NCBI RefSeq assembly: GCF_000422565.1
Contig: NZ_AUMA01000008.1
Coordinates: 1-64,000 of the forward strand
Source: Desulfovibrio aminophilus DSM 12254
GTDB lineage: Bacteria; Desulfobacterota; Desulfovibrionia; Desulfovibrionales; Desulfovibrionaceae
Direction: 5' to 3'
Length of the DNA: 64,000 nucleotides
Shown: positions 8,978 to 23,788 of the stretch, one piece after another
Layout: each line of letters opens with the position of its first letter
How positions within the stretch are numbered: the first letter of the stretch is position 1
Notes under the pieces: model-generated
Database searches by the model: none
Seen by the model: only the letters and a program-made list of their open reading frames with translations
Told to the model about the DNA's origin: nothing
Position numbers and translations under genes: made by a program

Positions 8978-9409
8978 GGAAAGCGCACTGGCCGTGGTCG
9001 GAGAGTGCGATACGCGAAGGGGCAACTTCATTATCCCCAAAAAACAATTGCCACTCGAGAACACCAGAGCATATGGACACATCATGCAGCGATAGTTCAA
9101 CCATTAATTTGCAGCATAACGAGCCATGAAAATGGAAGAATTTCGATTCAAAATGAGCAACTCAAAAGTTGCATATCATCACGCCGCTAAATCCATCATA
9201 AACTGATTTACTAGGCCAGCCTTCTGAACGTTTGCGGTATACAAGCATCCAGAAGGGAAGCCTCGATGAGAATTAGGCAAAAGGAGCCCCGCAGAGCCGA
9301 TCCAGCACAATGACGTGCGGTCTTTTACGCCGGAAAAGACTCCCGATCCAGTCATCCTCACGGAAAACAGCCGAGAGTTCTGCGGTACGGAGAGTCACTC
9401 CTCTGAGCT

Positions 9410-9444
9410 GGTTGCCGGAGGTTCAAATCCTTTCACCCCGACCA
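9410..9444 (+). other. tRNA-Pro-like 3' fragment (probable integration attachment site)
   Basis: The stretch ends in GGTTCAAATCCTTTCACCCCGACCA, matching the T-arm, the 3' acceptor strand CACCCCG, discriminator A and CCA of bacterial tRNA-Pro. The 5' acceptor strand CGGGGTG and the D and anticodon arms are absent upstream, so this is not a functional tRNA. The T-stem pairs only with G-U wobbles. Integrases often recombine at tRNA 3' ends and leave such a copy at the far side of an island. Confidence 0.5.
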
Positions 9445-9809: not shown

Positions 9810-10370
9810 ATGCAGGAATCTCAACACGAAGCCCAGACGCTCGCGTCCCTGAGAGATTTTTTCATCGCTCAGGACGGAGCCGAGCTGGAGGCCGCCGTCG
9901 GGAGGCTCCCCGAGGATCTCAAGTCCGCCGTTCCAGCCGTGCCGGACTGGGATGCCGCCGAGTTCGACTTCAACCGCTTCTTCGTCGGCCCCCGCATCCT
10001 GGCCGCCCCCCCCTATGCTTCCGTCTATCTGTCCCCCGAGCCGCAGGTCATGGGCGAGGCGGCCCTTGAGGCCCGGAGGATCTACGCGGCCCTGGGCCTG
10101 CAATCCCCGTTCGACGCCCGGCTCCCGGACGACCATCTGAGTCTCGAGCTCGACGCGTTGCGCATCATGCAGGGGGTTCTGTCCCACACGCCATCGGAGC
10201 CGCTGAAGGAGTTGCGGGACTGTTTCGTTCACGAACACCTGAACGTCTGGGTTCCGCTTTTCGCCAGGCAGGTCAGGATGGTCGCGCCCGAGCATACGAT
10301 CATCCGTTTCATGGCGGACGCCGTGGAGCGGTGCGTGGAGTCGGTCGCCGAGTCGAAGGGCAGGTTCTAG
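9810..10370 (+). CDS. TorD/DmsD-family molybdoenzyme maturation chaperone
   Basis: The protein has 186 residues. Family members bind the Tat signal and apo-form of molybdopterin enzymes in the cytoplasm until the cofactor is inserted. The helical pattern and blocks such as DFNRFFVGP, ASVYLSPEPQVMG and the C-terminal CFVHEHLNVWVPLFARQV agree with TorD; the motif HEHLNVWVP is typical. The start at 9810 has AGGAGG three to four bases upstream, while the open frame extends back into the leader. It is the first gene of the reductase cluster, 27 bases before a Tat-dependent catalytic subunit that is its likely client. Confidence 0.88.
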   Translation: MQESQHEAQTLASLRDFFIAQDGAELEAAVGRLPEDLKSAVPAVPDWDAAEFDFNRFFVGPRILAAPPYASVYLSPEPQVMGEAALEARRIYAALGLQSPFDARLPDDHLSLELDALRIMQGVLSHTPSEPLKELRDCFVHEHLNVWVPLFARQVRMVAPEHTIIRFMADAVERCVESVAESKGRF

Positions 10371-10397
10371 CCGTTTCTCTACCCGGAGGAAGGAAAG

Positions 10398-12653
10398 ATG
10401 GAGAAGGAGAGAAAATTGATGAACAGCTCGTTGCTCAATGAGATGTCGAGGCGGAGCTTCGTGAAGCTGCTGACGGCCGGTGGAGCGGCTGCGATGCTGC
10501 ACGGAGGCCTGCTCACGCCGAAGGCCTTCGCCGGACCGGCGAAGACGGCGGGCGGTTGCAAGGCCTTCCACAGCGCCTGTCAGCGGAACTGCTACGACAC
10601 GTGCGCCATGCTGTCGTATGTCGACGACGGCGTGTTGAAGTACGTCGAGGGCGACAAACAGTCGACGTTCACGAACGGCGGTCTCTGCGTCAAGGGCTAC
10701 AGCTATCCCCGGCGGGTCTACAGCCCGGACCGCATCAAGTATCCGATGAAGCAGATCGGGCGCGGCACCGGCAACTGGAAGCGCATTTCCTGGGAAGAGG
10801 CGATCGACAGCATCTGCGACAAGATCCTGAGCATCAAGAAAGAGGATGGTCATCTTCTCGGGCTCGCCCTGGACAAGAATTCCGGCAGCGAGGGCATCAC
10901 CAACTGCGCCGTCATCCAGGGGTTGTTCACCGGGCTGGGCTACACGACCCGCTTTGAAGGAAGCAACTGCTGGCCCGCCGGTTACGACGCGCAGTACTTC
11001 GACTTCGGCGACATGGTCTGCAACGACCCCGAGGATCTGGCCAACGCCGGATACATCATCCTCTGGGGCGTGAATCCGGCCTGGACCTCCATTCACACCA
11101 TGAAGTTCATCTACGCCGCGAAGGAACGCGGCGCGAAGGTGGTCTGTATCGATCCCGTGCTGACCCAGACGGCGGCGAAGTGCGACGAATACCTCGCCCC
11201 GAAGATGGGCACGGACGGCGCCCTGGCCCTCGGCATGGCCCGCCACATCCTGGACCTGGGCCTCGCTGACCGGGGCTGGGTCGCGGACAATGCCCTGGGA
11301 TTCCCGGAGTTCGAACAGTACCTCCGGGAGAAGGTGACGGTGCAGTGGGCCGCCGAGGAGACCGGCATCCCCGCCGAGACCATCGCCCGCATCGCGGAAG
11401 AGTTCGCGAAAGCCAAGCCCGCGACGATCTGGATCGGCTACGGCCTGCAGCGGCACACCAACGGCGGTCGCGCGGTCCGTTCCATCGACGCCCTGGTCGC
11501 GATGACGGGCAACGTCGGCAAGAAGGGCGGCGGCGCGCGTTACGGTCAGGAATTCACCTGGGACTTCGAGTACTGGCCGAAGAGCAAGATGAGCCCCCCG
11601 GCCGGCTCCATCGGATTCGTCAATCCCGCGAAGCAGAAGCCCGGTGAGCCGACGGTGTATTCCAACCGTTCGCTCAACCGCAATCAGGCCGCCAGGGAGA
11701 TGCGGAAGGCGGATCCGAAGATCCGCATGTTGTGGGTGTCCTGCAGCAATCCGATGAGCCAGTATCCCAACCGCAACGAAATGGAGAAGATGTACCGCGG
11801 GCTCGACATGCTCGTCGTCGTCGACCAGTTCTTCACCCAGACCGCCGAACTGGCGGACATCGTCCTGCCGACCACGACGCAGTTCGAGGAATGGCAGGTC
11901 AACGTGTCGTACTGGCACTACTGGCTGGCGATCAACGAGCAGTGCATCGAGCCGTTGTTCGAGGCGAAGCCGAACACCGTCATCTCCGCGCTCGTCTCCA
12001 AGAGGATGAACGAGCTGAGCCCTGGATCATGCACCTATCAGCAGGATCTCACGCCGAAAGAGTGCATGATCCGCAACTTCAACGACACGATCCACAAGCT
12101 GAACGGGATCTCCTCCTGGGAAGATCTCCTGAAGGGTCCCGTGAAGGCGAAGCGCAATCCCGTCTCCTGGGCTGAGGGCAAGTTCAAGACTCCCTCCGGG
12201 AAATACGAGTTCCTGTCGGCGAAGGCCGCGGAATACGGCCATCCCGCGTTGCCCGAGTATCACTCGCGCCGCCCGAATCACGACAAGTTCGTCGTCCTCA
12301 CGCCGCATACGAAGTTCGGTCTCCATTCGCAGTTCATCAATCTCGACTGGATGCGGGACTTCAATCCCGAGCCGTGCGTCTACATCAATCCGAATTCCGC
12401 GCGGAGCAAGAACATCGTGAGCGGCGACATGGTCCGCGTCTACAACAAGTTCGGCGAGGTCGCGGTGAAGGCCCAGGTCACCGACAACGTGCCTGAAGAC
12501 ACGCTGCTCATGTATGAAGCCTGGTTCAAGAACGAGAAATTCAATGTCCAGAACGTCCTGGATGACGCCGTAGCGGACATGGGCGCCTATCAGTTCGGCG
12601 GTCATCGCGGTCCGGCGATCCAGGAACAGTTCGCGAACGTGGAAAAAATGTAG
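10398..12653 (+). CDS. DMSO-reductase-family molybdopterin oxidoreductase, catalytic subunit (module 1, substrate unknown)
   Basis: The protein has 751 residues. A twin-arginine signal (SRRSFVKLL, residues 17-25) sends the folded enzyme across the membrane. The N-terminal [4Fe-4S] ligands are C61, C65, C69 and C97 in a CxxxCxxxC plus C arrangement, followed by bis-MGD binding regions and a C-terminal molydopterin dinucleotide-binding domain (VVLTPHTKFGLHSQF onward). It is clearly related to DmsA but much shorter and divergent from the DmsA in module 2. Where DmsA has the Mo-ligand Ser, this protein reads FEGSNCWPAGYD, so C191 or S189 could bind Mo. It is followed by its own FeS and membrane subunits. 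The substrate may be an S- or N-oxide or another oxyanion. Confidence 0.9.
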   Translation: MEKERKLMNSSLLNEMSRRSFVKLLTAGGAAAMLHGGLLTPKAFAGPAKTAGGCKAFHSACQRNCYDTCAMLSYVDDGVLKYVEGDKQSTFTNGGLCVKGYSYPRRVYSPDRIKYPMKQIGRGTGNWKRISWEEAIDSICDKILSIKKEDGHLLGLALDKNSGSEGITNCAVIQGLFTGLGYTTRFEGSNCWPAGYDAQYFDFGDMVCNDPEDLANAGYIILWGVNPAWTSIHTMKFIYAAKERGAKVVCIDPVLTQTAAKCDEYLAPKMGTDGALALGMARHILDLGLADRGWVADNALGFPEFEQYLREKVTVQWAAEETGIPAETIARIAEEFAKAKPATIWIGYGLQRHTNGGRAVRSIDALVAMTGNVGKKGGGARYGQEFTWDFEYWPKSKMSPPAGSIGFVNPAKQKPGEPTVYSNRSLNRNQAAREMRKADPKIRMLWVSCSNPMSQYPNRNEMEKMYRGLDMLVVVDQFFTQTAELADIVLPTTTQFEEWQVNVSYWHYWLAINEQCIEPLFEAKPNTVISALVSKRMNELSPGSCTYQQDLTPKECMIRNFNDTIHKLNGISSWEDLLKGPVKAKRNPVSWAEGKFKTPSGKYEFLSAKAAEYGHPALPEYHSRRPNHDKFVVLTPHTKFGLHSQFINLDWMRDFNPEPCVYINPNSARSKNIVSGDMVRVYNKFGEVAVKAQVTDNVPEDTLLMYEAWFKNEKFNVQNVLDDAVADMGAYQFGGHRGPAIQEQFANVEKM

Positions 12654-12661
12654 CGGGGTGA

Positions 12662-13228
12662 ATGATGAGCAAGCAGCTTGCTTTTTACGTAGACTCGCAG
12701 AAGTGCATCGGATGCTTCTCGTGCGCCATGGCATGCAAGAACATGTATCATCCCGAGCCGGGAGTGAAATGGCGTCAGGTCTATCCTCTTTCGGAAGACA
12801 TCTATCCGCATCACGAACGCGCCTTCTATTCTCTCGCCTGCAACCACTGCGAGCATCCGACCTGCCTGGAGTGCTGTCCCGTCGGCGCCTACACGAAGAG
12901 GGAGGACGGCATCGTCGTCCATGACCAGGACAAGTGCATCGGGTGCGGCAACTGTGTGCGGTCCTGCCCGTACGGCGCGCCGCAGTACAACCCGAAGCTG
13001 AAGAAGGCCGAAAAGTGCAGCATGTGTTGGGAACGCATCGACGCCAAGCTTGAGCCCGCCTGCGTGCAGGCCTGCCCGGTCAAGGCGCTGCGGATCATCG
13101 ACCTGTCCGAGTTCGATGACGCCGAGGCGTTGCATTATCCTCCCGGATTCCCGCGTTTCGAGAGTCTCAACCCGTCCGTCCGCTTCAAACTGCCCCGGCA
13201 TCCCCATGTTGTCAGGAGGAATGGCTGA
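12662..13228 (+). CDS. DmsB-like four-cluster ferredoxin subunit (module 1)
   Basis: The protein of 188 residues carries the four cysteine groups of DmsB-type electron-transfer subunits: CIGCFSCAMAC, CNHCEHPTCLECCP, CIGCGNCVRSCP and CSMCWERIDAK...CVQACP, enough for four [4Fe-4S] clusters. It has no signal peptide and would be exported bound to the Tat-carrying catalytic subunit. It passes electrons from the membrane anchor to the molybdenum site. It begins eight bases after the catalytic subunit and its stop overlaps the next start by one base. Two ATG codons are adjacent (12662 and 12665); either may start. Confidence 0.93.
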   Translation: MMSKQLAFYVDSQKCIGCFSCAMACKNMYHPEPGVKWRQVYPLSEDIYPHHERAFYSLACNHCEHPTCLECCPVGAYTKREDGIVVHDQDKCIGCGNCVRSCPYGAPQYNPKLKKAEKCSMCWERIDAKLEPACVQACPVKALRIIDLSEFDDAEALHYPPGFPRFESLNPSVRFKLPRHPHVVRRNG

Positions 13229-14025
13229 TGAACGACGCGAACTACTCCCTCGTGCTGTTTACCGTGCTCGCCCAAGGCTCCGTCGGGATGATCGTGACGA
13301 GCTACCTGTGCTTCCGGCTGGCGGGGCGGGGTGAAATGCCGCACATCCGGCGCGAATGGATCATGGCCGGAGTGCTGCTTCTGGCGGGCCTGACCGCTTC
13401 GTTGTTTCACATCGGGCATCCCTTCGGCGCGGCGGCGGCGCTCACCCACGTGGCGACGTCCTGGCTGAGCCGTGAGGTGATCGCCGTCTGCCTGTTCGGC
13501 GCGCTGACGGCGTACACGATCGTCGCGATGCGCAAGAGCCTGCCCGCGTCCTTGATGCTCGGCACGGCGATCCTCGGCGTCGTGTCCCTCGTCGTGTCCG
13601 GGGCCGCGTACGCGCCCCCGAGCCTCCCCGCGCTCAACAACGCCTCGCCGATCGCCTTGTTCCTCCTGACGGCGGCGAGCATCGGCCTGGCCTCGAAGAG
13701 CTTCTTCGGCCCGAAGGACGATGACGGCTTCGTGGCCCAGTGGCTGATCTTCGTGCTCATCGCGTCGATCGCCGTCAGGATCATCCTGCCGAGCATCTGG
13801 TCCTCCGGCGGCGCGGTGATGATGAAGACGGGGCAGGCCTGGTTCGCCTCGCCCGTGTTCTGGCTGCACATCGTCCTGCTCGCCGCGCCGATTCCCTTCC
13901 TGCTGAAGAGCAAGGCGTTGAAGCCGTGGATGTTCGTGGCCGTTCTCGCAGCCGAGCTGCTCGGCCGCCTGACGTTCTTCGTCGGCACGGCCGCGACCTA
14001 CCAGAACATCGGACATCTGTTTTAA
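13228..14025 (+). CDS. DmsC-like membrane anchor subunit (module 1)
   Basis: A hydrophobic protein of 265 residues with about eight transmembrane helices. The DmsC signature is visible as LFHIGHPFGAAAALTHVATSWLSREV near residues 53-78 and the C-terminal ELLGRLTFFVGT. Such anchors oxidise menaquinol and hold the FeS and catalytic subunits at the outer face of the cytoplasmic membrane. AGGAGG stands seven bases before the start, and the start overlaps the stop of the FeS subunit. With the two preceding genes it makes a complete three-subunit reductase. Confidence 0.92.
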   Translation: MNDANYSLVLFTVLAQGSVGMIVTSYLCFRLAGRGEMPHIRREWIMAGVLLLAGLTASLFHIGHPFGAAAALTHVATSWLSREVIAVCLFGALTAYTIVAMRKSLPASLMLGTAILGVVSLVVSGAAYAPPSLPALNNASPIALFLLTAASIGLASKSFFGPKDDDGFVAQWLIFVLIASIAVRIILPSIWSSGGAVMMKTGQAWFASPVFWLHIVLLAAPIPFLLKSKALKPWMFVAVLAAELLGRLTFFVGTAATYQNIGHLF

Positions 14026-14031
14026 CTGACC

Positions 14032-14066
14032 GGCCGCCGCGATTCAGCGGACGAATCGCGGCGGCC
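14032..14066 (+). promoter_or_regulatory. Intercistronic GC-rich hairpin before the FmdE-like gene
   Basis: GGCCGCCGCGATT (14032-14044) and AATCGCGGCGGCC (14054-14066) form a perfect 13-bp stem with no U-tract after it. It lies seven bases after the membrane-anchor stop and seven bases before the ribosome-binding region of the next gene. It could protect mRNA ends or lower read-through. Confidence 0.6.
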
Positions 14067-14081
14067 GCAATCGAGGTCGAA

Positions 14082-14933
14082 ATGGATATCGGGAATTACA
14101 GCTTCAGCGAATTCAAGAATCTCGCGGCGGCGTTCCACAGTTACCCCGCGCCCGGTCTTCTGCTGGGCGGGTACATGGTCGAGCGGGCGAGGAGGGAGCT
14201 TCCGGACGGAATATTGTTCGAGGCCATCGTCGAAACCCCGAAGTGCCTGCCCGACGCGGTCCAACTTCTCACGCCGTGCAGCATCGGCAACGGCTGGATG
14301 AAGATCGTCAACTATGGACGCTACGCCCTGGCCCTGTACGACAAGTATGAGGGAACGGGCTTCCGCGTCTTCGTCGATTCCGAAAAGATCAGGAAGTGGC
14401 CCGAGCTGTCCGGCTGGTTCTACAAACTGAAGCCCAAGAAGGAACAGGATTCGGATCGCCTGCTGCGGGAGATCGAAGCCGCCGGCGACACGATCTGCGG
14501 CATCGAAACGATCCGCGTCGCGCGGAAATTCCTCGGCAAGCTTCCGTCGAGCAGGATTTCCGATTGCCCCATCTGCGGCGAGGCGTTTCCCGTCAATGAC
14601 GGCGCCGTCTGCCGGGGCTGCCAGGAGAAGGCCATATACGACACGAGGGACGACGATCGCGCGCGCGAGAGCCCCTCGCTGCGCTCCATGCCCGTGGCCG
14701 CCGCGGTCGGGAAGACGGCGCTGCACGACATGACGCAGATCGTCCCGGGGAAGATGAAGGGCGCGGCCTTCAAGGCCGGGCAGGTCATCAGCGCGGGCGA
14801 CGTGTGCCGTCTGCAGCAGATGGGCAAGAACAACGTGTTCGTCGAGGACGCCGCCGGTGTCGGCTCCGAGTGGGTTCATGAAAATGACGCCGCGCGGGAA
14901 TTCGCGCGGAGAATGGCGGGCCGGAACGTCTAG
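14082..14933 (+). CDS. FmdE/molybdopterin-binding fusion protein, N-terminal half (stops at in-frame TAG)
   Basis: The 283 residues before the stop hold an FmdE-like domain (about 1-150; FSEFKNLAAAFHSYPAPGLLLGGYM at the start, with the conserved early His and Gly), a treble-clef zinc motif near 163-181 (CPICGE...VCRGC), and the beginning of a MoeA-like region (VGKTALHDMTQIVPG...GQVISAGDVCRLQQMGKNNVFV). FmdE was first seen in molybdenum formylmethanofuran dehydrogenase operons, and fusions of this kind accompany molybdoenzyme genes. The role is probably in handling molybdopterin or Mo for the two reductases. The TAG at 14931-14933 is in frame with 256 further codons of the same protein, so the gene is either a recent pseudogene or read through. 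Confidence 0.8.
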   Translation: MDIGNYSFSEFKNLAAAFHSYPAPGLLLGGYMVERARRELPDGILFEAIVETPKCLPDAVQLLTPCSIGNGWMKIVNYGRYALALYDKYEGTGFRVFVDSEKIRKWPELSGWFYKLKPKKEQDSDRLLREIEAAGDTICGIETIRVARKFLGKLPSSRISDCPICGEAFPVNDGAVCRGCQEKAIYDTRDDDRARESPSLRSMPVAAAVGKTALHDMTQIVPGKMKGAAFKAGQVISAGDVCRLQQMGKNNVFVEDAAGVGSEWVHENDAAREFARRMAGRNV

Positions 14934-15704
14934 TTCGGCGAGGCCGACGAGGGGAAGGTCGTCTTCACGGCGAAGATCGACGGCCTGCTGACCCTGGATC
15001 GCGACAAGCTGAAGGCCTTCAACCTCGTTCCCGGCGTGATGTGCGCCTCGCGCCACGGCGACGCCATGGTCGAACAGGCCAAGCCCATCGCGGGGTGTCG
15101 CGCGATTCCGCTGTATCTTTCGCGCGCGGACTTCTCGAAGGCGCAGCATGTCCTTGGCACGGAGCCCATCTTCAACGTCGTCCCGTTCCGCGAGGCCAAG
15201 GTCGGAATCATCGTCACCGGCACGGAGGTCTTCACCGGCCTGATCGAGGACAAGTTCATCCCGGTGGTCAGGGCCAAGGTGGAAAAGCTCGGCTGCACCG
15301 TCGTGGGCGGCGAGATCCAGCCTGACGACAGGAAGCGCATCGCGGACAGCGCCGAGCGGATGATCGCCGACGGCGCCGACATCATCATCACGACCGCCGG
15401 TCTTTCCGTCGATCCCGACGACGTGACGCGGGCCGCGCTGCACGACGTGGGCATGAGCGACGCCCTGTACGGCATGCCCGCGCTTCCTGGAGCCATGAGC
15501 CTGGTGGGGAAGATCGGGAGCGTGGACATCATCGGCGTCCCCGCCTGCGCGATCTTCTTCAAGGCGACCGGCTTCGACCTCATTCTGCCGCGCGTCGTCG
15601 CCGGACTGCCCATCACGCGGAACGATCTCGCCGACTATGCGGAGGGAGGATTTTGTCTGGGATGCAAGTCCTGCACATTCCCCAAGTGCCCGTTCGGCAA
15701 GTAA
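14934..15704 (+). pseudogene. FmdE/molybdopterin-binding fusion protein, C-terminal half after the TAG
   Basis: The frame continues without shift after the TAG. It encodes the rest of the MoeA-like part (GKVVFTAKIDGLLTLDRDKL, NLVPGVMCASRHGD), a MoaB/MogA-like molybdopterin-binding domain (VGIIVTGTEVFTGLIEDKFI, TTAGLSVDPDDVT, LPGAMSL, GVPACAIFF) and a cysteine-rich tail (CLGCKSCTFPKCPFGK). The MPT-binding motifs look intact. The first ATG (15036) has no ribosome-binding site and would cut into a conserved block, so independent translation is doubtful. A single base change from many sense codons (for example CAG, AAG, TAC or TGG) would explain the stop. Confidence 0.7.
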
Positions 15705-15728
15705 GCAAAACACGTTGAGGAGGATGAC

Positions 15729-18161
15729 ATGGATAGCGGAAAAGAAACCATGCGGACGGACGAGAAGAGAAGATCGCTGTTGAAATGGGCCGCGGCGATC
15801 GGTTGCGTGAGCGCGCTCCCCGGGGCCGGTCTGCTCGCGGGCGGGAAGCGGGCGGCCGCCTCCAGCGCGAAGCCGGGCGAGAAAGTCGTCTGGACCTCCT
15901 GCAACGTCAACTGCGGGAGCCGTTGCGTCCTGCGCGCGCACGTCTCCGACGGAATCATCACGCGCATCGAGACCGACGACCTCGGCGACGACCAGTACGG
16001 CGACCATCAGGTGCGCGCCTGCCTGCGCGGCCGTTCGATGCGGCAGCGGGTCTACGCCAAGGAACGGCTGAAATATCCCATGCGCCGGGTCGGCAGGCGC
16101 GGGGAAGGGAAGTTCGAGCGCATCAGCTGGGACGAGGCCCTGGACGAGATCGCGGCCCGACTGAAGAAGACCATCGCCAAGTGGGGCAACGAAGCCGTCT
16201 ACCTGAATTACGGCACGGGAAACCTCGGCGCCGTCATGTCCAAGTCCTGGCCCACCGGCTCCACCCCGGTCGCCCGCCTCATGAACTGCCTCGGCGGCTA
16301 CCTGAACCAGTACGGCACGTACAGCGACGCCATGATCGACATGGCCCTGCCGTACACCTTCGGCGACGGCTGGGTCGAGGGCAACGCCTTCTCGGACATC
16401 GCCTACAGCAAGCTGGTCGTGTTCTTCGGCAACAACCCCGGCGCGACGCGGATGAGCGGCGGCGGCGTGCTGCATGACATCCTGACCGCGCGGAAGAAGG
16501 GCGACACGAAGATCATCGTCGTCGACCCCCGCTATACGGACACGGCGGCCGCCATGGCGGACGAATGGATCCCCATCCGTCCCGGGACCGACGCCGCCCT
16601 CGTCTGCGGCCTGGCCCACGTCATGATCACGGAAGGCCTTGAGGACAAGGATTTCATCAGGAAATACACCGTGGGGTTCGACGAGGACTCCATGCCCGAG
16701 GGCGTGCCCGCCGGGAACTCCTACAAGTCCTATATCCTGGGCCTGGGCGAGGACAAAACCCCCAAGACGCCCGAATGGGCCGCGTCCATCACCGGCATTC
16801 CCGCCCGGCGCATCGTGCAGCTCGCCCGTGAGATCGCGGGCGCGAAGCCGTGCTACATCGCGCAGGGCTGGTCCGTGCAGCGCCAGGCCAACGGCGAGCA
16901 GAACTGCCGCGCCGTGTGCATGCTGCCCATCCTGACCGGCAACGTCGGGGTGCGCGGCGGCAATACGGGCGCCCGGGAAGACGGCTACTGGCTTCCGTTC
17001 ACGCGTTTCCCCGTGCTGAAGAATCCGGTGTCCACCTCGATCTCCTGCTTTCTGTGGACCGACGCCATCGAGCGCGGCCCGGAGATGACCGCCAAGCGGG
17101 ACGGCGTGCGGGGCCGGGACAAGTTGCAGGTTCCGATCAAGTTCATCTGGAACTACGCCGGAAACTGCCTGGTCAACCAGCACGCGGACTCGGGAAAGAC
17201 CGCGCGGATACTGGCCGACGACACCAAGTGCGAAACGATCGTCGTCATCGACAACTTCATGACCCCGAGCGCCAAGTTCGCGGACATTCTCCTCCCCGCC
17301 GTGACCAACCTGGAGGAAGACGACTTCGCGCAGCACGGCTTCGTTTCCGAGATGGGCTACGTGATCTTCGCCCAGAAGGCCATCGAGCCGTTGTTCGAGT
17401 CGCGGTCCGTGTACGACATGTGCGCCGACATCGCGAAGCGCTTCGGCGTGGAGCGGCAGTTCACCGAGGGACGGACGCGCCGGGAGTGGATGCAGTACCT
17501 TCTCGACCAATCCCGCATCAAGCTTCCGGAATTGCCGGAGAAACTGGACGACGCCTTCGCCATGGGGATCTTCAAGAAGCGGATAACGGATCTTCCGGGC
17601 ATCCCCTACAAGGACTTCCGCGACGATCCGGTCAAGAACCCCGTCAAGACGCCGTCCGGAAAGCTGGAAATCTTCTCCAAGCGCCTCTGGGAGATCGGCA
17701 GGGAATGGGATCTCCCGCAGGGGGACCGGATTTCCGGCCTGCCCGAATACAACGCCACCTGGGAAGGCGTGGCCGATCCGTTGCGGGCGAAGTATCCGCT
17801 GCAACTCATCGGGCACCATTACAAGCAGCGGACGCACTCCACATACGGCAACGTCGACTGGCTGAAGAAGGTCGCTCCGCAGGAACTCTGGATCAATCCG
17901 GTCGACGCCGAGGCCCGCGGCATCGCGCACGGGGACGAGGTCAAGGTCTCCAACGACCGGGGGGTCGTGTTCACCACGGCGAAGGTGACGCCCCGGATCA
18001 TGCCCGGCGTCCTGTCTCTTCCCGAGGGCGCGTGGTTCACGCCGGATTCGGGCGGCAATGACCATGGCGGATGCGTCAACGTCCTCACGTCATTGCGTCC
18101 CTCGCCACTGGCGAAGGGCAATGCCCAGCATACCAATCTTGTGGAAGTCAAAAAGGCTTAG
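15729..18161 (+). CDS. dmsA: Anaerobic dimethyl sulfoxide reductase catalytic subunit DmsA (module 2)
   Basis: The protein has 810 residues and reads closely like E. coli DmsA over its whole length (for example YGTGNLG, SWPTGSTPVARLMNCLGGYL, GNNPGATRMSGGG, GRTRREWMQYL, HYKQRTHSTYGNVDWL, RPSPLAKGN). A twin-arginine signal (KRRSLLKWAAAIG) is at residues 13-25. The FeS0 ligands are C58, C62, C66 and C98, and S199 in GTYSDAM matches the Mo-coordinating Ser of DmsA. The enzyme reduces DMSO and related S- and N-oxides with electrons from menaquinol. AGGAGG precedes the start. It is followed directly by dmsB and dmsC. Confidence 0.96.
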   Translation: MDSGKETMRTDEKRRSLLKWAAAIGCVSALPGAGLLAGGKRAAASSAKPGEKVVWTSCNVNCGSRCVLRAHVSDGIITRIETDDLGDDQYGDHQVRACLRGRSMRQRVYAKERLKYPMRRVGRRGEGKFERISWDEALDEIAARLKKTIAKWGNEAVYLNYGTGNLGAVMSKSWPTGSTPVARLMNCLGGYLNQYGTYSDAMIDMALPYTFGDGWVEGNAFSDIAYSKLVVFFGNNPGATRMSGGGVLHDILTARKKGDTKIIVVDPRYTDTAAAMADEWIPIRPGTDAALVCGLAHVMITEGLEDKDFIRKYTVGFDEDSMPEGVPAGNSYKSYILGLGEDKTPKTPEWAASITGIPARRIVQLAREIAGAKPCYIAQGWSVQRQANGEQNCRAVCMLPILTGNVGVRGGNTGAREDGYWLPFTRFPVLKNPVSTSISCFLWTDAIERGPEMTAKRDGVRGRDKLQVPIKFIWNYAGNCLVNQHADSGKTARILADDTKCETIVVIDNFMTPSAKFADILLPAVTNLEEDDFAQHGFVSEMGYVIFAQKAIEPLFESRSVYDMCADIAKRFGVERQFTEGRTRREWMQYLLDQSRIKLPELPEKLDDAFAMGIFKKRITDLPGIPYKDFRDDPVKNPVKTPSGKLEIFSKRLWEIGREWDLPQGDRISGLPEYNATWEGVADPLRAKYPLQLIGHHYKQRTHSTYGNVDWLKKVAPQELWINPVDAEARGIAHGDEVKVSNDRGVVFTTAKVTPRIMPGVLSLPEGAWFTPDSGGNDHGGCVNVLTSLRPSPLAKGNAQHTNLVEVKKA

Positions 18162-18173
18162 TGGGGACACGCC

Positions 18174-18791
18174 ATGAAGAAACCGTCGTTTCACGTCGAC
18201 TTGAACAAGTGTACCGGGTGCAAGACATGCATGATCGCCTGCATGGACAAGAACAATACGAACGAAAACATACTGTTCCGGCGTGTCGTCGAATATTCTG
18301 GCGGAAGCTGGGTCCGCAATGCCGACGGCACGTATGAGCAGAACATCTTCGCGTATTATGTGTCGATGGCCTGCAATCATTGCGAGGATCCGATCTGCGT
18401 GAAGTCCTGCCCGACGACCGCCATGCACAAGGACGAGAACGGCATCGTGAGCGTCGACCATGAAAAGTGCGTCGGGTGCAGATATTGCGAGCTGGTTTGT
18501 CCCTATTCCGCTCCGCAGATCGACGCCCGCCTGGGAAAGATGACGAAGTGCGACTTCTGCCGCGATTATCTCGAGCAGGGACGCCCCCCGGCCTGCGTCG
18601 CCGCCTGTCCGACCCGCGCGCTCACCTTCGGCGACTATGAGACGCTTCAGAAGCGGTACGGAGAAGCGCAGACGTTCGCGCCGCTTCCCGATCCGGCGAT
18701 CACGAAGCCCCGTTTGTTCCTCACCGCGAACAAGAACGCGCGGCAGCTCGGGGCGAGCAACGGAAAGATTCAAAACCCCGAAGAGGTGTAG
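18174..18791 (+). CDS. dmsB: Dimethyl sulfoxide reductase FeS subunit DmsB (module 2)
   Basis: This protein has 205 residues, the usual DmsB length, with four ferredoxin-type cysteine groups: CTGCKTCMIAC, CNHCEDPICVKSCP, CVGCRYCELVCP and CDFCRDYLEQG...CVAACP. Stretches such as EYSGGSW, AYYVSMACNHCEDP and the ending NPEEV follow E. coli DmsB closely. It conducts electrons through four [4Fe-4S] clusters from DmsC to DmsA. It starts 12 bases after dmsA and ends two bases before dmsC. Compared with the FeS subunit of module 1 it keeps the longer C-terminal tail. Confidence 0.95.
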   Translation: MKKPSFHVDLNKCTGCKTCMIACMDKNNTNENILFRRVVEYSGGSWVRNADGTYEQNIFAYYVSMACNHCEDPICVKSCPTTAMHKDENGIVSVDHEKCVGCRYCELVCPYSAPQIDARLGKMTKCDFCRDYLEQGRPPACVAACPTRALTFGDYETLQKRYGEAQTFAPLPDPAITKPRLFLTANKNARQLGASNGKIQNPEEV

Positions 18792-18793
18792 TC

Positions 18794-19654
18794 ATGCTCA
18801 CAGCAGAATGGAGTCTGGTCTTCTTCACCGTCATCGTGCAGGTGGCCGCCGGCATGCTGCTCGCCGCCGAAACCGCGAAAACGACCGTGCGTCTTGAGAC
18901 GGGCGGCCTGCTGCGGCTTCAGGCCCCGATCGCGTGCGGCCTGGTCGCGCTCGGGTTCATCTTCTCCGGCGCGCATCTCGGGTCGCCGATGCACAGCCTG
19001 TTCACGCTCTTCAACGTGCCGCATTCGCCCTTGAGCAGGGAGATCGTGGCCGTCGGGCTCCTGCTGGCCGCCGCGATCGCCCTCGCGTACCTGCGTCTGA
19101 AAAAGGGCAATGAGGCGAAGGTGCTGGGCATCGTGGCCGCGATCCTCGGCATCGTCGCCGTGTTGTCCATGACCCGGGTCTACATGGTGTCCACCGTGCC
19201 CGTGTGGAACAACTCCGCCACCTGGCTCGGCTTTCTCGGGACGATGCTGCTTGTCGGGCCGATGATCGCCGGAACCGTGTTCCTCTACCAGGCGAAGGGC
19301 GCTTCGGACGTCGATGCGCGGCCGATGTTCAAGGTCTTCTCCATCATCTTCGCCGTCGGGTTCGCCTTGAAACTCATCGGCATTCCGATGTCGACGGCCG
19401 CATTCTCCTCGCTGTCGCAACTCGGCCTGTCGTCCTATTCACCGATCGCCGGCGCGGGAACGGCCCTGTTCATCACGAGGCTGCTTCTGCTGATCGTCGG
19501 CGTGGGCCTGTTCTGCAAGGTCGTTCTCGGCGTCCAGGGGGATGGGCGGACGCCGCGCATGAATCTGTGCGCGTGCGCCGCTCTGCTGGTCGTCATGGGT
19601 GAACTGTTGGACCGCGCGATGTTCTTCGGGGCGTATGCCAGGATAGGCCTGTAG
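18794..19654 (+). CDS. dmsC: Dimethyl sulfoxide reductase membrane anchor DmsC (module 2)
   Basis: The protein has 286 residues and about eight transmembrane helices. Its DmsC signature is AHLGSPMHSLFTLFNVPHSPLSREIV near residues 57-82, with the C-terminal MGELLDRAMFFGAYARIGL. It anchors DmsAB and takes electrons from menaquinol. The gap to dmsB is two bases, so translation is coupled. It is clearly homologous to the module-1 anchor but not a recent duplicate, since identity by eye is limited to the family motifs. Confidence 0.94.
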   Translation: MLTAEWSLVFFTVIVQVAAGMLLAAETAKTTVRLETGGLLRLQAPIACGLVALGFIFSGAHLGSPMHSLFTLFNVPHSPLSREIVAVGLLLAAAIALAYLRLKKGNEAKVLGIVAAILGIVAVLSMTRVYMVSTVPVWNNSATWLGFLGTMLLVGPMIAGTVFLYQAKGASDVDARPMFKVFSIIFAVGFALKLIGIPMSTAAFSSLSQLGLSSYSPIAGAGTALFITRLLLLIVGVGLFCKVVLGVQGDGRTPRMNLCACAALLVVMGELLDRAMFFGAYARIGL

Positions 19655-19665
19655 GAATGACAATC

Positions 19666-19693
19666 GGCGGCCCGGCGATCGCGCCGGGCCGCC
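19666..19693 (+). promoter_or_regulatory. Intercistronic GC-rich hairpin before the second chaperone gene
   Basis: GGCGGCCCGGC (19666-19676) and GCCGGGCCGCC (19683-19693) form a perfect 11-bp stem with a six-base loop and no U-tract. It sits just after dmsC and 13 bases before the chaperone start, the same arrangement as the hairpin at 14032-14066 after the module-1 anchor. Confidence 0.6.
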
Positions 19694-19706
19694 CTGAAGA
19701 AAAATC

Positions 19707-20354
19707 ATGAACGACGACATCCGCTTTTCACGACTCGCCGTCGCGTTCTTCTTCCTCGGGAACGGCTATGCATTCCCCCCGCGGGCGGAATTGCTGAGTG
19801 CATTGCGGGATGACCGCCTGTTCGACGACTGGGTTTTGCCGATTCAGACGGACGGGGGCCGGAAGGGACTCGCGATGCTGCGGGAATTCGCGGCCGGATA
19901 CGATGATTCCGGGCTCGTCGCGGTGCGGCGGGATTTCGACGGCCTCTTCGTCTGTTCCGATCGTCCGGTGCCGATTTGGGAATCGGCCTGGGTGAACGGC
20001 GACGGATTGTTGTTTCAGAAGACAAGCCTTGATGTGTCGCGCCGCTACGAGGCGAATGGATTCACTTTTCCCAGGACATGCAACGAGCCTGCCGACCATT
20101 TCGGTTTCGAGCTGCTGTTCGTCTCCAGCTTGTCGAACGACATTCACGCCTGCATGGACAGGGGCGACGCCGCGAACGCCCGCCGCATCGTCACGGAACT
20201 CGACCGGTTTGTGGACGAACATGTGCTGCAATGGGCCGACGCCTTCCTGTCCGAGGTGTTGAAAAGGACGGGAAGCCGCTACTATGCCGGGTGTTCCCTG
20301 CTGTGCTCGGACGCCATCACGACCCTGCGCCGTTTCTTGGGCGAGTGGGAATGA
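19707..20354 (+). CDS. TorD/DmsD-family chaperone (module 2)
   Basis: The 215-residue protein shows the all-helical TorD pattern: RLAVAFFFLGNGYAFPP at the start, VPIWESAWV (the family P-x-x-E-S block), FTFPRTCNEPADHFGFELLFVSSL and a final helix VDEHVLQWADAFLSEV. It probably guards the DmsA Tat signal until bis-MGD insertion. It lies downstream of dmsABC and is different in sequence from the chaperone that opens the cluster, so each module seems to have its own chaperone. The ribosome-binding region (GAAGAAAA) is weak and close to the upstream hairpin. Confidence 0.85.
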   Translation: MNDDIRFSRLAVAFFFLGNGYAFPPRAELLSALRDDRLFDDWVLPIQTDGGRKGLAMLREFAAGYDDSGLVAVRRDFDGLFVCSDRPVPIWESAWVNGDGLLFQKTSLDVSRRYEANGFTFPRTCNEPADHFGFELLFVSSLSNDIHACMDRGDAANARRIVTELDRFVDEHVLQWADAFLSEVLKRTGSRYYAGCSLLCSDAITTLRRFLGEWE

Positions 20355-20360
20355 ACCGTC

Positions 20361-21404
20361 ATGCCCCGGGTCATCGTCAACGCGGCGCGATGCGTGAATG
20401 CGAGAAAAACCGTCTGCTCCCGGTGCGCCGACATCTGTCATTCCCATTCGATCCGCCTGGGCGGCATGCCCTCGATCGACCGCCTGTCCTGCAATGACTG
20501 CGGCGCATGCGCCGCCATATGCCCGACGGACGCGCTCGCGGCTTTCGACTCCGGGCGCTTTCTCGGGAGGGTCCGCCGCTTGCCGAAAAGCGCGTCGATC
20601 GTGCTGGGATGCAAGATGGTCGCGGGACCGGGTTCGGATGTGGTCGGCATCGAACATTGTTTCTCGGCGCTGGGGGCTGATGCCCTGATGGGGCTCGTGG
20701 CCCTGGGATTTGCAAGCGTCGTCTTCGCTCACGGAGATTGCGCGGGCTGCACGGAAGGCGACAGGCTGCGCGGCTTCGAACGCATGCTGGAGGAGACGGC
20801 GAACTGGCTCTCGGTGTTCGGCCTGCGGGACGGCGTGCGTCTTGAACGACGCCGCATCCCCGAGGCCGCCGGGCGGCAGGCCCGGGTCGATCATTCCAGG
20901 CGCAATTTCTTGTCCGCGTTTTTCAACGGGAGGAGGGAGCCGGGCGGTTCCATGTCCGAAAAGAGTCCGCTGCCCGCCGACGCCGCGCCCGACAAGCACG
21001 AGAATCTCGTGCGGCAGTTGCGCCGCATCCGCCGGAACCATCCGATCGCCCCGGAGCCTGGGCGGCATCCGGTTCAGATCGCGGACACGTGCAACGCCTG
21101 CGGTGCGTGCGGCGCGGTGTGCCCGACCGGGGCCCTGCAGTGTTCAGCAGGGGGAGACCGCTTCCGGGTGGATCATACGCCGTCGAAATGTCTCCGCTGC
21201 ACCCTTTGCGTGAGCGTATGCGGGAAAAAGTGCATCACGTTCAACTGCGACGGATATTCCCTACCGCTTCTTGACGGAACTGAAGTCGTCGCGGACTTCG
21301 CGTGCCTGAAATGCGTCCGGTGCAACTCCTCATCGAAGGAATTGTCGAAGGACGGCCTCTGCGCCATCTGCGACAAAAAAGTGCGGATAGGAATCCGGAC
21401 CTAG
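20361..21404 (+). CDS. Polyferredoxin-like 4Fe-4S protein of the reductase cluster
   Basis: The protein has 347 residues. The N-terminal part has cysteines C11, C19, C22 and C26 and a classical CNDCGACAAICP (C44-C54). A middle domain without clusters contains GDCAGCTEGDRLRGF. A second ferredoxin pair follows (CNACGACGAVCP and CLRCTLCVSVC), then a C-terminal CLKCVRC...LCAICDKK knuckle that may bind zinc. There is no signal peptide or membrane segment, so it is cytoplasmic. It starts six bases after the chaperone. Similar ferredoxins occur near TorD genes; a role in electron supply or in cluster or cofactor insertion is possible but unproven. Confidence 0.8.
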   Translation: MPRVIVNAARCVNARKTVCSRCADICHSHSIRLGGMPSIDRLSCNDCGACAAICPTDALAAFDSGRFLGRVRRLPKSASIVLGCKMVAGPGSDVVGIEHCFSALGADALMGLVALGFASVVFAHGDCAGCTEGDRLRGFERMLEETANWLSVFGLRDGVRLERRRIPEAAGRQARVDHSRRNFLSAFFNGRREPGGSMSEKSPLPADAAPDKHENLVRQLRRIRRNHPIAPEPGRHPVQIADTCNACGACGAVCPTGALQCSAGGDRFRVDHTPSKCLRCTLCVSVCGKKCITFNCDGYSLPLLDGTEVVADFACLKCVRCNSSSKELSKDGLCAICDKKVRIGIRT

Positions 21405-21414
21405 AAGGAGGCCG

Positions 21415-21552
21415 ATGATGCGCCGCCCTCCGGCGGCGTCCCTGTTCGAGCCTGGACGGTGGGAGGTTCGGCGCGGTATATGGGGCGGCGACGGGGGCGT
21501 TCGGGCCCGGAGGCGAGGAACTGGAGACGCTCTGGTGAAGGGACTCTCATGA
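21415..21552 (+). CDS. Possible 45-residue small protein between ferredoxin and sensor kinase
   Basis: An ATG at 21415 stands four bases after AAGGAGG (21404-21410) and opens a frame of 45 codons whose stop TGA overlaps the start of the sensor kinase as ATGA at 21549-21552. The translation is rich in Arg and Gly (MMRRPPAASLFEPGRWEVRR at the start, GDALVKGLS at the end) with no membrane segment or known motif. The good ribosome-binding site and the overlap favour a translated coupling ORF; the biased composition argues caution. No relative is recognised. Confidence 0.45.
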   Translation: MMRRPPAASLFEPGRWEVRRGIWGGDGGVRARRRGTGDALVKGLS

Positions 21553-23162
21553 AAACAGCCGATGGCGGGAAAAAAGACGGCGGCGCGCGCATTCTGTTCC
21601 AGATGTGCGCCGTCCTGCTGATCCTCCTTTCCTGTGCCGGGAACGCCCGGGCGCGGCAGGACGCCGAAAAACTCCTGGTCGGCATCTTCGAGGACCAGCC
21701 GCAAATATTCCTGGATGAAAAAGGTCGGGAGCAAGGGCTGTTCGTCGACGTCCTGGAGGACATCGCCGCGAAGGAGCACATCGACATCCAGTACGTCTAC
21801 GGCACCTGGATCGACCTGCTCGACAAGCTCGACCGGGGCGAGATCGACCTGCTGCCGGCCACCTACTATACGAAGGAGCGGGCGCGGAAGTTTCTGTTCA
21901 CCGCCGACTACCTCCTGATGGACTGGGGACAGCTTTGGACCGGCGACAACTCTTCGGTCAATTCCATCTTCGACCTTGAAGGCGGGAGCCTGGGAGTCGT
22001 CCGGGGCAACGCTTTCACGCAGCCGTTTCTGGGGCTGCTCGAGAGCTTCAGGATCTCCTGCACCGTCGTCGAGTTCGACGAGCATACGGCATTGTTCTCG
22101 GAACTGGAGCGTGGAACGGTCGACGCCGCGATCGTCGGGAGGTACGCCGGGTTTCTGAAGGGCAGGAAAGACAGGTTGAAGGCGATCCCTTTCGTCTTCA
22201 ACCCCTGCGAGGTCCGTTACGCCGCGCCGAAGGACGGCGGCGAATGGATCATCGGCCTTCTGGATCGCCATATCGCGGCGATGAAGGCCGACAAGAATTC
22301 CGTCTATTACGCCTCATTCAACAAGTGGTTCAACCCGAAGCCGGACTGGACCCTCCCATCCTGGTTTTGGCCCACGATCGGCGGATGTGCCGCCGCCGCG
22401 GCGCTGCTGTTGTCCCTCAGCGTCATCCTGAAACGGCAGGTGACGCTCAGGACGGCCAAGCTCGTGGAGGCCAACGAGGCCCTCACCGCCTCGCGGGACC
22501 AGATCCGCCGTCTGATCGTCCATCAGCAGAAGGAGTTGGAGGACGAGCGGCGCCGCTTCGCCCATCAGGTTCATGACGACCTGGGGCAGACCATGACCGC
22601 GATCAAGATCAATCTCGTTTTCCTGGGGAAGTTCTTGGAGTCGCCCGGCGAAAAGGCGCGGGAGAAGCTGTCGCTCCTGATCGATTTGATCAACGGCGCG
22701 CTGGTGTCCGTCCGGAGCATCTCCAACGACATCAGCCCGAAGCAGTTGGACGATCTGGGCTTGGCCGCGACCGTGAAATGGCACGCGATGAATTTCTCGA
22801 AGGTCGTCAACATACCGATTCATTTCAATGGCACGACCGAGCGGTTCAATCTCACGCGCGAACAGCGGATCGCCATCTACCGCATCTTCCAGGAGGCGCT
22901 GACCAACGTGGTCCGCCATGCGGCGGCGACGGCCGTCACCGTCCAGGTCCGGCGCGTCGGCCAGTCCATCGAGCTGATCGTCGAAGACGACGGAACCGGG
23001 TTCACGGCCGAGGAGTTGATCAAGAAAGGCTCGTTCGGCGTCATCGGGATGAAGGAAAAGGCCTACGCGCTCGACGGCGAGCTTGATATAGACTCCGTGC
23101 GCGGACAGGGGACGCGCGTTCGGCTTCTGGTGCCCATTCATCCAGAGGAGCGGATCGCGTGA
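21549..23162 (+). CDS. Sensor histidine kinase with periplasmic solute-binding domain (NarX/HisKA_3 type)
   Basis: The protein has 537 residues: a signal peptide (about 1-35, ILFQMCAVLLILLSCAGNARA), a periplasmic domain of the SBP_bac_3 type (40-255; EKLLVGIFEDQPQIFLDEKG, QGLFVDVLEDIA, DLLPATYYTKERA, LGVVRGNAF), a transmembrane helix (about 273-295), a coiled-coil, HisKA_3 with phospho-His in HQVHDDLGQ near residue 340, and a HATPase ending in GVIGMKEKA. It would sense a small molecule in the periplasm and phosphorylate the NarL-like regulator whose gene overlaps its stop. Its place at the end of the reductase cluster suggests the ligand is a reductase substrate. The start at 21549 is set by the signal peptide and the ATGA overlap. 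Confidence 0.92.
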   Translation: MKTADGGKKDGGARILFQMCAVLLILLSCAGNARARQDAEKLLVGIFEDQPQIFLDEKGREQGLFVDVLEDIAAKEHIDIQYVYGTWIDLLDKLDRGEIDLLPATYYTKERARKFLFTADYLLMDWGQLWTGDNSSVNSIFDLEGGSLGVVRGNAFTQPFLGLLESFRISCTVVEFDEHTALFSELERGTVDAAIVGRYAGFLKGRKDRLKAIPFVFNPCEVRYAAPKDGGEWIIGLLDRHIAAMKADKNSVYYASFNKWFNPKPDWTLPSWFWPTIGGCAAAAALLLSLSVILKRQVTLRTAKLVEANEALTASRDQIRRLIVHQQKELEDERRRFAHQVHDDLGQTMTAIKINLVFLGKFLESPGEKAREKLSLLIDLINGALVSVRSISNDISPKQLDDLGLAATVKWHAMNFSKVVNIPIHFNGTTERFNLTREQRIAIYRIFQEALTNVVRHAAATAVTVQVRRVGQSIELIVEDDGTGFTAEELIKKGSFGVIGMKEKAYALDGELDIDSVRGQGTRVRLLVPIHPEERIA

Positions 23163-23788
23163 AGATTCTCCTCGTCGATGACCACGGAATCGTCCGCTGC
23201 GGGATCAGGGAGGTCGCGCAGGAGTACTCCCCGGACCTCGAGTTCGAGGAGGCCTCGACCTCGCAGGAGGCCATGCGCAAGATAGCCGCCGAGGCCTTCG
23301 GACTGGTCCTGCTCGACTTGTCCCTCCCGGACGAGTCCGGGTTGGAGACGATGCGGAAGATACGCAACGTGCGCCCGGAGCTGCCCGTACTCGTCCTCAG
23401 CATGCACCTGGAAAGTGAGTACGTCGTGGCCGCCTTCAGGGCCGGAGCCAACGGCTATCTGCCGAAAAGCTTCGCGGCCGAGGAACTCGTCACGGCCATT
23501 TCGGACGTGCTGGACGGGAAGCGCTACATCAGCCCGGCGCTGACGGCGGATCTGCTGGACGAGAAGGTCAGCCAGTACGGCAAGGCGGCTGACAGAACCC
23601 TGTCGGAACGCGAGAAACAGGTGCTCATCCTGCTGGCCCAGGGCGAGAAGCTGTGCGACGTCGCCGAGCGGATGGGGTTGAACCCCAAGACCGTCGGCAC
23701 GTATAAGATCCGGGCCATGAAGAAGCTCGGCCTGAAGAACAACGCCCAACTGTTCCAGTACATGGCCAAGTGCGGCTTCCGCCTGTGA
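23159..23788 (+). CDS. NarL/LuxR-family response regulator
   Basis: The 209-residue regulator has a receiver domain with phospho-acceptor Asp53 (LLDLSLPDESG) and the conserved Lys in YLPKSFA, then a LuxR-type helix-turn-helix (LSEREKQVLILLAQG...VAERMGLNPKTVGTYKIRAMKKLG). It starts with GTG overlapping the kinase stop, so the pair is co-expressed. It probably activates the reductase operon. The only notable palindrome near a cluster promoter is the nested dyad at 9652-9694, but no link has been shown. Confidence 0.95.
   Translation: MKILLVDDHGIVRCGIREVAQEYSPDLEFEEASTSQEAMRKIAAEAFGLVLLDLSLPDESGLETMRKIRNVRPELPVLVLSMHLESEYVVAAFRAGANGYLPKSFAAEELVTAISDVLDGKRYISPALTADLLDEKVSQYGKAADRTLSEREKQVLILLAQGEKLCDVAERMGLNPKTVGTYKIRAMKKLGLKNNAQLFQYMAKCGFRL

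Follow-up and report, generated by a model that had tools for sequence, protein, structure and literature searches.

DmsABC and YnfEFGH of E. coli follow an A-B-C plan with a catalytic subunit, a DmsB-like Fe-S subunit and a DmsC-type anchor, accompanied by a TorD chaperone. Within the anchor DmsC of E. coli, His65 and Glu87 are required for menaquinol (PMC8076601). The selenate reductase SrnABCD from Enterobacter cloacae, described alongside YnfE and DmsD, is a Tat-exported enzyme encoded by a four-gene operon of A, B and C subunits plus a TorD-like chaperone (PMC12724226). Compounds of S, Se and As are the targets of Cys-ligated members (PMC7331816), and a survey has reported unnamed Cys-using MopB branches, the best hits of which are acetylene hydratase-, Psr- or DmsA-like (PMC10100899).

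Here, we analyzed a 64,000-nucleotide stretch of Desulfovibrio aminophilus DSM 12254 (the window), in which two unlike reductase modules lie side by side. Our main finding is a widespread, uncharacterised Cys-ligated Dms-like operon, which constitutes module 1; its pairing with DmsABC is itself local.

Organisation of the locus and its DmsABC module

The segment 9810-23788 is encoded throughout on the forward strand and contains both reductase modules, its neighbouring genes being spaced by -4 to 144 bp. All genes named in the first-pass annotation, which had placed them on a single strand with small gaps, were confirmed. Such an arrangement allows one long transcript. That two substrates might be handled under one sensor, as the first-pass annotation proposed, is a conjecture drawn from the local order. 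Promoter and terminator scans gave signals no higher than those of shuffled sequences, and the Rfam search returned no match. A hairpin of 12 pairs, all GC, lies between DmsC2 and TorD2 (19666-19693), possibly marking a point of mRNA processing or attenuation.

The catalytic subunit of module 2, DmsA2 (15729-18161, 810 residues), belongs to the DmsA/YnfE family and exceeds the cut-off of TIGR02166 (1192 bits versus 777.7), as does DmsB2 (18174-18791) that of TIGR02951 (228 bits versus 214). Ser199 of DmsA2 aligns with the Mo ligand Ser147 of the DMSOR chain 1dms. The anchor DmsC2 (18794-19654) keeps the menaquinol residues corresponding to His65 and Glu87 in the E. coli protein, and DmsB2 retains the Cys pattern of DmsB. 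DmsA2 clusters with E. coli DmsA, YnfE and YnfF in a quick tree, where the DmsA clade has a support of 100, and has relatives in 14 of the 44 sampled genera of the family. Module 2 resembles DmsABC/YnfEFGH of E. coli in both passed cut-offs, the Ser ligand, the DmsC anchor and the shared clade, and is by its sequence a canonical DmsABC. The most likely acceptor would be DMSO or a related S-/N-oxide, or else selenate, which its Ynf relatives reduce.

Downstream of the anchor, domain and family profiles identify TorD2 as a DmsD-like chaperone (19707-20354). It is followed by a polyferredoxin (20361-21404), a recurrent companion of DmsABC-TorD according to its domain profile and neighbourhoods, by a histidine kinase with an SBP_bac_3 sensor and HisKA_3 (starting at 21459 or, likelier, at the ATG at 21549, and ending at 23162), and by a LuxR-type response regulator (23159-23788, domain profile). 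Upstream of DmsA2, a gene at 14082-15704 joins FmdE (14082-14933), a zinc finger and a molybdopterin-binding part (FmdE-MPT). The first-pass annotation rightly recognised an FmdE/molybdopterin-binding gene here; it is not intact as a single gene, being one fusion of 557-573 residues in relatives and split in the window by an in-frame TAG at 14931-14933. The closely related genome G028 (97% DNA identity) reads GAG at this codon. We read the TAG as a nonsense change or a sequence error. Pyrrolysine at this position was rejected because PylS was not found in the window genome and G028 carries GAG.

CatA1, a putatively Cys-ligated catalytic subunit

Module 1 opens with TorD1 (9810-10370; 186 residues from the ATG at 9810; PF02613, 2e-24), a Tat/Moco chaperone, followed by the Mo-bisPGD catalytic subunit CatA1 (10398-12653; 751 residues), which is predicted to be Tat-exported, the Fe-S subunit FeS1 (12662-13228) and anchor1 (13228-14025). 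The 16 Cys of FeS1 are arranged as in four-cluster subunits of the DmsB type. Anchor1, a PF04976 protein of the DmsC type, has eight predicted transmembrane segments together with the equivalents of His65 and Glu87 of the DmsC quinol site. Because of this Cys pattern, the transmembrane segments and the quinol residues, module 1 would be a complete menaquinol-linked exported reductase. Electrons would flow from menaquinol through anchor1 and FeS1 to CatA1, which would reduce an oxidised substrate outside the cytoplasmic membrane, and TorD1 is probably the chaperone of its own module. As judged from their sequences, both enzymes of the locus are Tat-type, Fe-S-containing and quinol-linked.

CatA1 falls under every NCBIfam curated cut-off in the profile search, including TIGR02166 (312 bits, cut-off 777.7) and the PhsA model (247 bits, cut-off 694). 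The candidate Mo ligand Cys191 lies in the motif G-x-x-C-W-P-A-G and is invariant in the aligned orthologues, as is the FS0 Cys. Cys191 aligns with Cys173, the Mo ligand of PsrA, which is the best PDB sequence match. The AlphaFold model of CatA1 (mean pLDDT 67) supported assignment to the general Mo-bisPGD fold only, with formate dehydrogenases, Nap, Arr, Psr and others all at Z of about 29-36. A reference search for PhsA in the family returned no match, its positive control being silent as well.

We also ran the phylogeny of both catalytic subunits that had been called for, and CatA1 and DmsA2 fell into separate clades. In this quick tree, with deep forks open and TtrA-like loci left out of the final version, the CatA1 clade is distinct (support 99 with the nearest outgroup and 97 without it) and has members in Firmicutes, Nitrospirota, Campylobacterota, Deferribacterota, Chloroflexota and Pseudomonadota. 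CatA1 lies outside the DmsA (100), PsrA (98) and ArrA-like groups; the PsrA clade takes in two other Mo proteins of the window genome (L002 and L004), not CatA1. The earlier view that the two modules are not recent duplicates holds, given about 34% identity, 751 versus 810 residues, Cys versus Ser as the ligand and different clades.

Compared with known systems, module 1 shares with DmsABC/YnfEFGH the A-B-C plan, the DmsB-like Fe-S subunit, the DmsC-type anchor and TorD. However, CatA1 has Cys for Ser, reaches only 312 of 778 bits and occupies a separate branch. With PsrABC/PhsABC it shares the Cys Mo ligand (Cys191/Cys173), Tat export and the quinol link, as predicted here, whereas anchor1 is of the DmsC type (PF04976) and CatA1 stands outside the PsrA clade. 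The operon resembles that of SrnABCD in its four genes, its A, B and C subunits with a TorD-like chaperone and its Tat export (PMC12724226), but SrnA is set apart from CatA1 by description, being presented beside YnfE, which groups, like YnfF, with DmsA and not with CatA1. SrdA was likewise set apart by description, as it groups with TtrA (PMC10100899). With its mixed best hits, CatA1 can be likened, by description only, to the novel Cys-ligated MopB lineages of the same survey (PMC10100899). Our literature search found no paper that names the CatA1 clade.

The Cys ligand, the match to PsrA and the occurrence of the operon in Seleniivibrio and Sulfurospirillum could suggest that CatA1 is a known reductase missed by the models, such as the antimonate reductase AnrA, the polysulfide/thiosulfate reductases Psr/Phs or the selenate reductase Srd. 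We consider this improbable, with CatA1 below all curated cut-offs and outside the PsrA and ArrA groups of the tree and with a DmsC-type anchor beside it. Module 1 instead appears to encode the complete respiratory system of a Cys-ligated clade that is widespread and uncharacterised. As for its substrate, a chalcogen or pnictogen oxyanion may be somewhat likelier than an S-/N-oxide, because the described quinol-linked Cys-ligated members act on such compounds. We hold this preference lightly because CatA1 is nearer to the Ser/Asp enzymes than to PsrA/ArrA in the quick tree with its open forks.

Distribution and neighbours of the two modules

We sampled 149 genomes from 44 genera of the family, in which TorD1-CatA1-FeS1-anchor1 is a fixed operon; TorD1 precedes CatA1 in nearly all relatives. 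Besides Desulfovibrionaceae, the operon occurs in Chloroflexi, Deferribacterota, Citrobacter, Raoultella, Kluyvera, Rouxiella, Bacillus, Pelosinus, Sporomusa, Sulfurospirillum and Seleniivibrio, among others. E. coli plasmids carry it as well, and public annotation gives it generic names only. All 27 module 1 loci of the family outside the genus lack DmsABC, as do most of the 80 named CatA1 loci, a set that is the output of a pattern-limited scan and not a frequency. DmsABC loci without CatA1 also occur in the family. Adjacency of CatA1 and DmsABC was found in only two of the 149 genomes, the window genome (G000) and G028. The first-pass annotation had said that conserved synteny of the separate modules alone would refute its reading, and this is largely what we found, since outside the genus the modules are conserved only separately. 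The two catalytic subunits co-occur only weakly: both are present in 8 of the 149 genomes, against 4.3 expected (P = 0.036), and in 7 of the 44 genera, against 4.8 expected (P = 0.12).

A LuxR-type protein of about 450 residues, truncated in some cases, resides directly upstream of module 1 at 22 of the 27 loci outside the genus, and we found no full copy of it in the window genome. A small secreted-looking protein of about 140 residues also recurs beside module 1 (L053, 13390-13809, and similar). Among the 15 DmsABC loci of the family that were read, FmdE-MPT is present in five and the polyferredoxin in four. One DmsABC locus (L083) carries a kinase/regulator pair resembling that of the window (36% and 41%); another (L080) has an SBP_bac_3 hybrid kinase and a sigma-54 regulator between FmdE-MPT and DmsA, and open reading frames are similarly placed in L084 and L086. 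FmdE-MPT, the polyferredoxin and SBP_bac_3-type kinases mainly accompany DmsABC, and module 2, comprising FmdE-MPT, DmsABC, TorD2, the polyferredoxin and the kinase/regulator pair, seems to be the usual DmsABC locus of the family. With the loss of the LuxR-type regulator that usually accompanies it, module 1 may now, as a guess, answer to the DmsABC two-component pair.

Two further kinds of pairing were observed among Firmicutes. In Desulforadius, two Cytobacillus and a Clostridiaceae metagenome-assembled genome (n = 4 loci), CatA1 relatives of 34-36% identity and without a Tat signal lie within a few kb of DmsABC-TorD (L169, L170, L171 and L174). PucR-type regulators were seen there in the two loci scanned for them (L169 and L170), and a radical SAM protein is nearby in L170 and L171. 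In Pelosinus, Sporomusa, Desulfosporosinus and Bacillus, a Tat-exported CatA1 is paired with a shorter paralogue that shares about 40% identity with CatA1 of the window (L132, L137, L131 and L141), with a PucR-type regulator where scanned (L132). Only these pairings hint independently that enzymes of this kind function two by two, and the adjacency to DmsABC argues against full independence of the modules. CatA1-type and Dms-type enzymes might even be a recurrent functional pair, joined independently in the genus and in Firmicutes, in which the Cys-ligated enzyme feeds or drains the DmsABC reaction under common control; we give this proposal little credence.

It is also unlikely, if marginally less so, that the locus encodes one pathway in which the second reductase consumes the product of the first and both are activated by the kinase/regulator pair. 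The contiguous layout on a single strand, the inheritance of both modules together in two genomes of the genus, the loss of the usual regulator of module 1 from the window genome and the independent placement of distant CatA1 relatives beside DmsABC in the four Firmicutes loci would all fit such a pathway. However, the modules adjoin in no other genome examined from the family, DmsA is missing from most CatA1 genomes, as CatA1 is from most DmsA genomes, a separate chaperone, Fe-S subunit and anchor are encoded in each module, and the partner in Firmicutes is signal-less and distant.

A variable segment at a tRNA-Pro scar

DNA homology between the window and G028 starts abruptly at 9405 and continues at about 97% through both modules; in G028, an additional gene of the chemoreceptor type separates the polyferredoxin from the kinase. 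The start coincides with a 40-nt 3' fragment of tRNA-Pro(TGG) (9405-9444, forward strand), an att-like scar, and the complete tRNA-Pro gene matching it sits on contig C5. Upstream of 9405, the sequences of the window and G028 differ, which suggests different integrated elements at a shared tRNA-Pro site. G060 matches the window again only from about 24287 onward, and a search of this genome (87% complete) detected neither catalytic subunit at the thresholds used. Because of the abrupt start, the identity of about 97% with G028 and the resumption in G060, the stretch from 9.4 to 24.2 kb appears to vary as a single segment within the genus. Calling it one island is fair at this level, as G028 keeps the segment together and the comparison with G060 did not find it there.

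Module 1 is also found near insertion sequences on E. coli plasmids, where TorD-CatA1-FeS-anchor lies beside such elements and an lldPRD set (L176, 8016-11622; L177, 2946-9259), and in L177 an IS66 element interrupts the catalytic gene. The flanks gave no clue to the substrate, either in Citrobacter (ahpF side) or on the E. coli plasmids (lldPRD, insertion sequences). Together with the tRNA-Pro scar, the differing upstream sequence in G028 and the separate branch occupied by the genus's CatA1, which stands 52-60% from all others, this setting makes it conceivable, though we would not bet on it, that a mobile respiratory module landed by chance next to DmsABC at the integration site and is functionally unlinked to it. 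Against this stand the 97% identity at which the modules are kept together in two genomes, the operon-like gene spacing and the adjacency of FmdE-MPT to module 1 in another genus (L054). We regard the locus as probably a genus-specific respiratory island that carries two self-contained menaquinol-linked Mo-bisPGD reductases.

The operon of module 1 combines a Dms-like body with a Psr-like metal ligand and is spread over sulfate reducers, Enterobacterales, Bacilli, Sporomusaceae, Chloroflexi, Deferribacterota and E. coli plasmids. Its substrate, once found, would name a currently anonymous anaerobic respiration.
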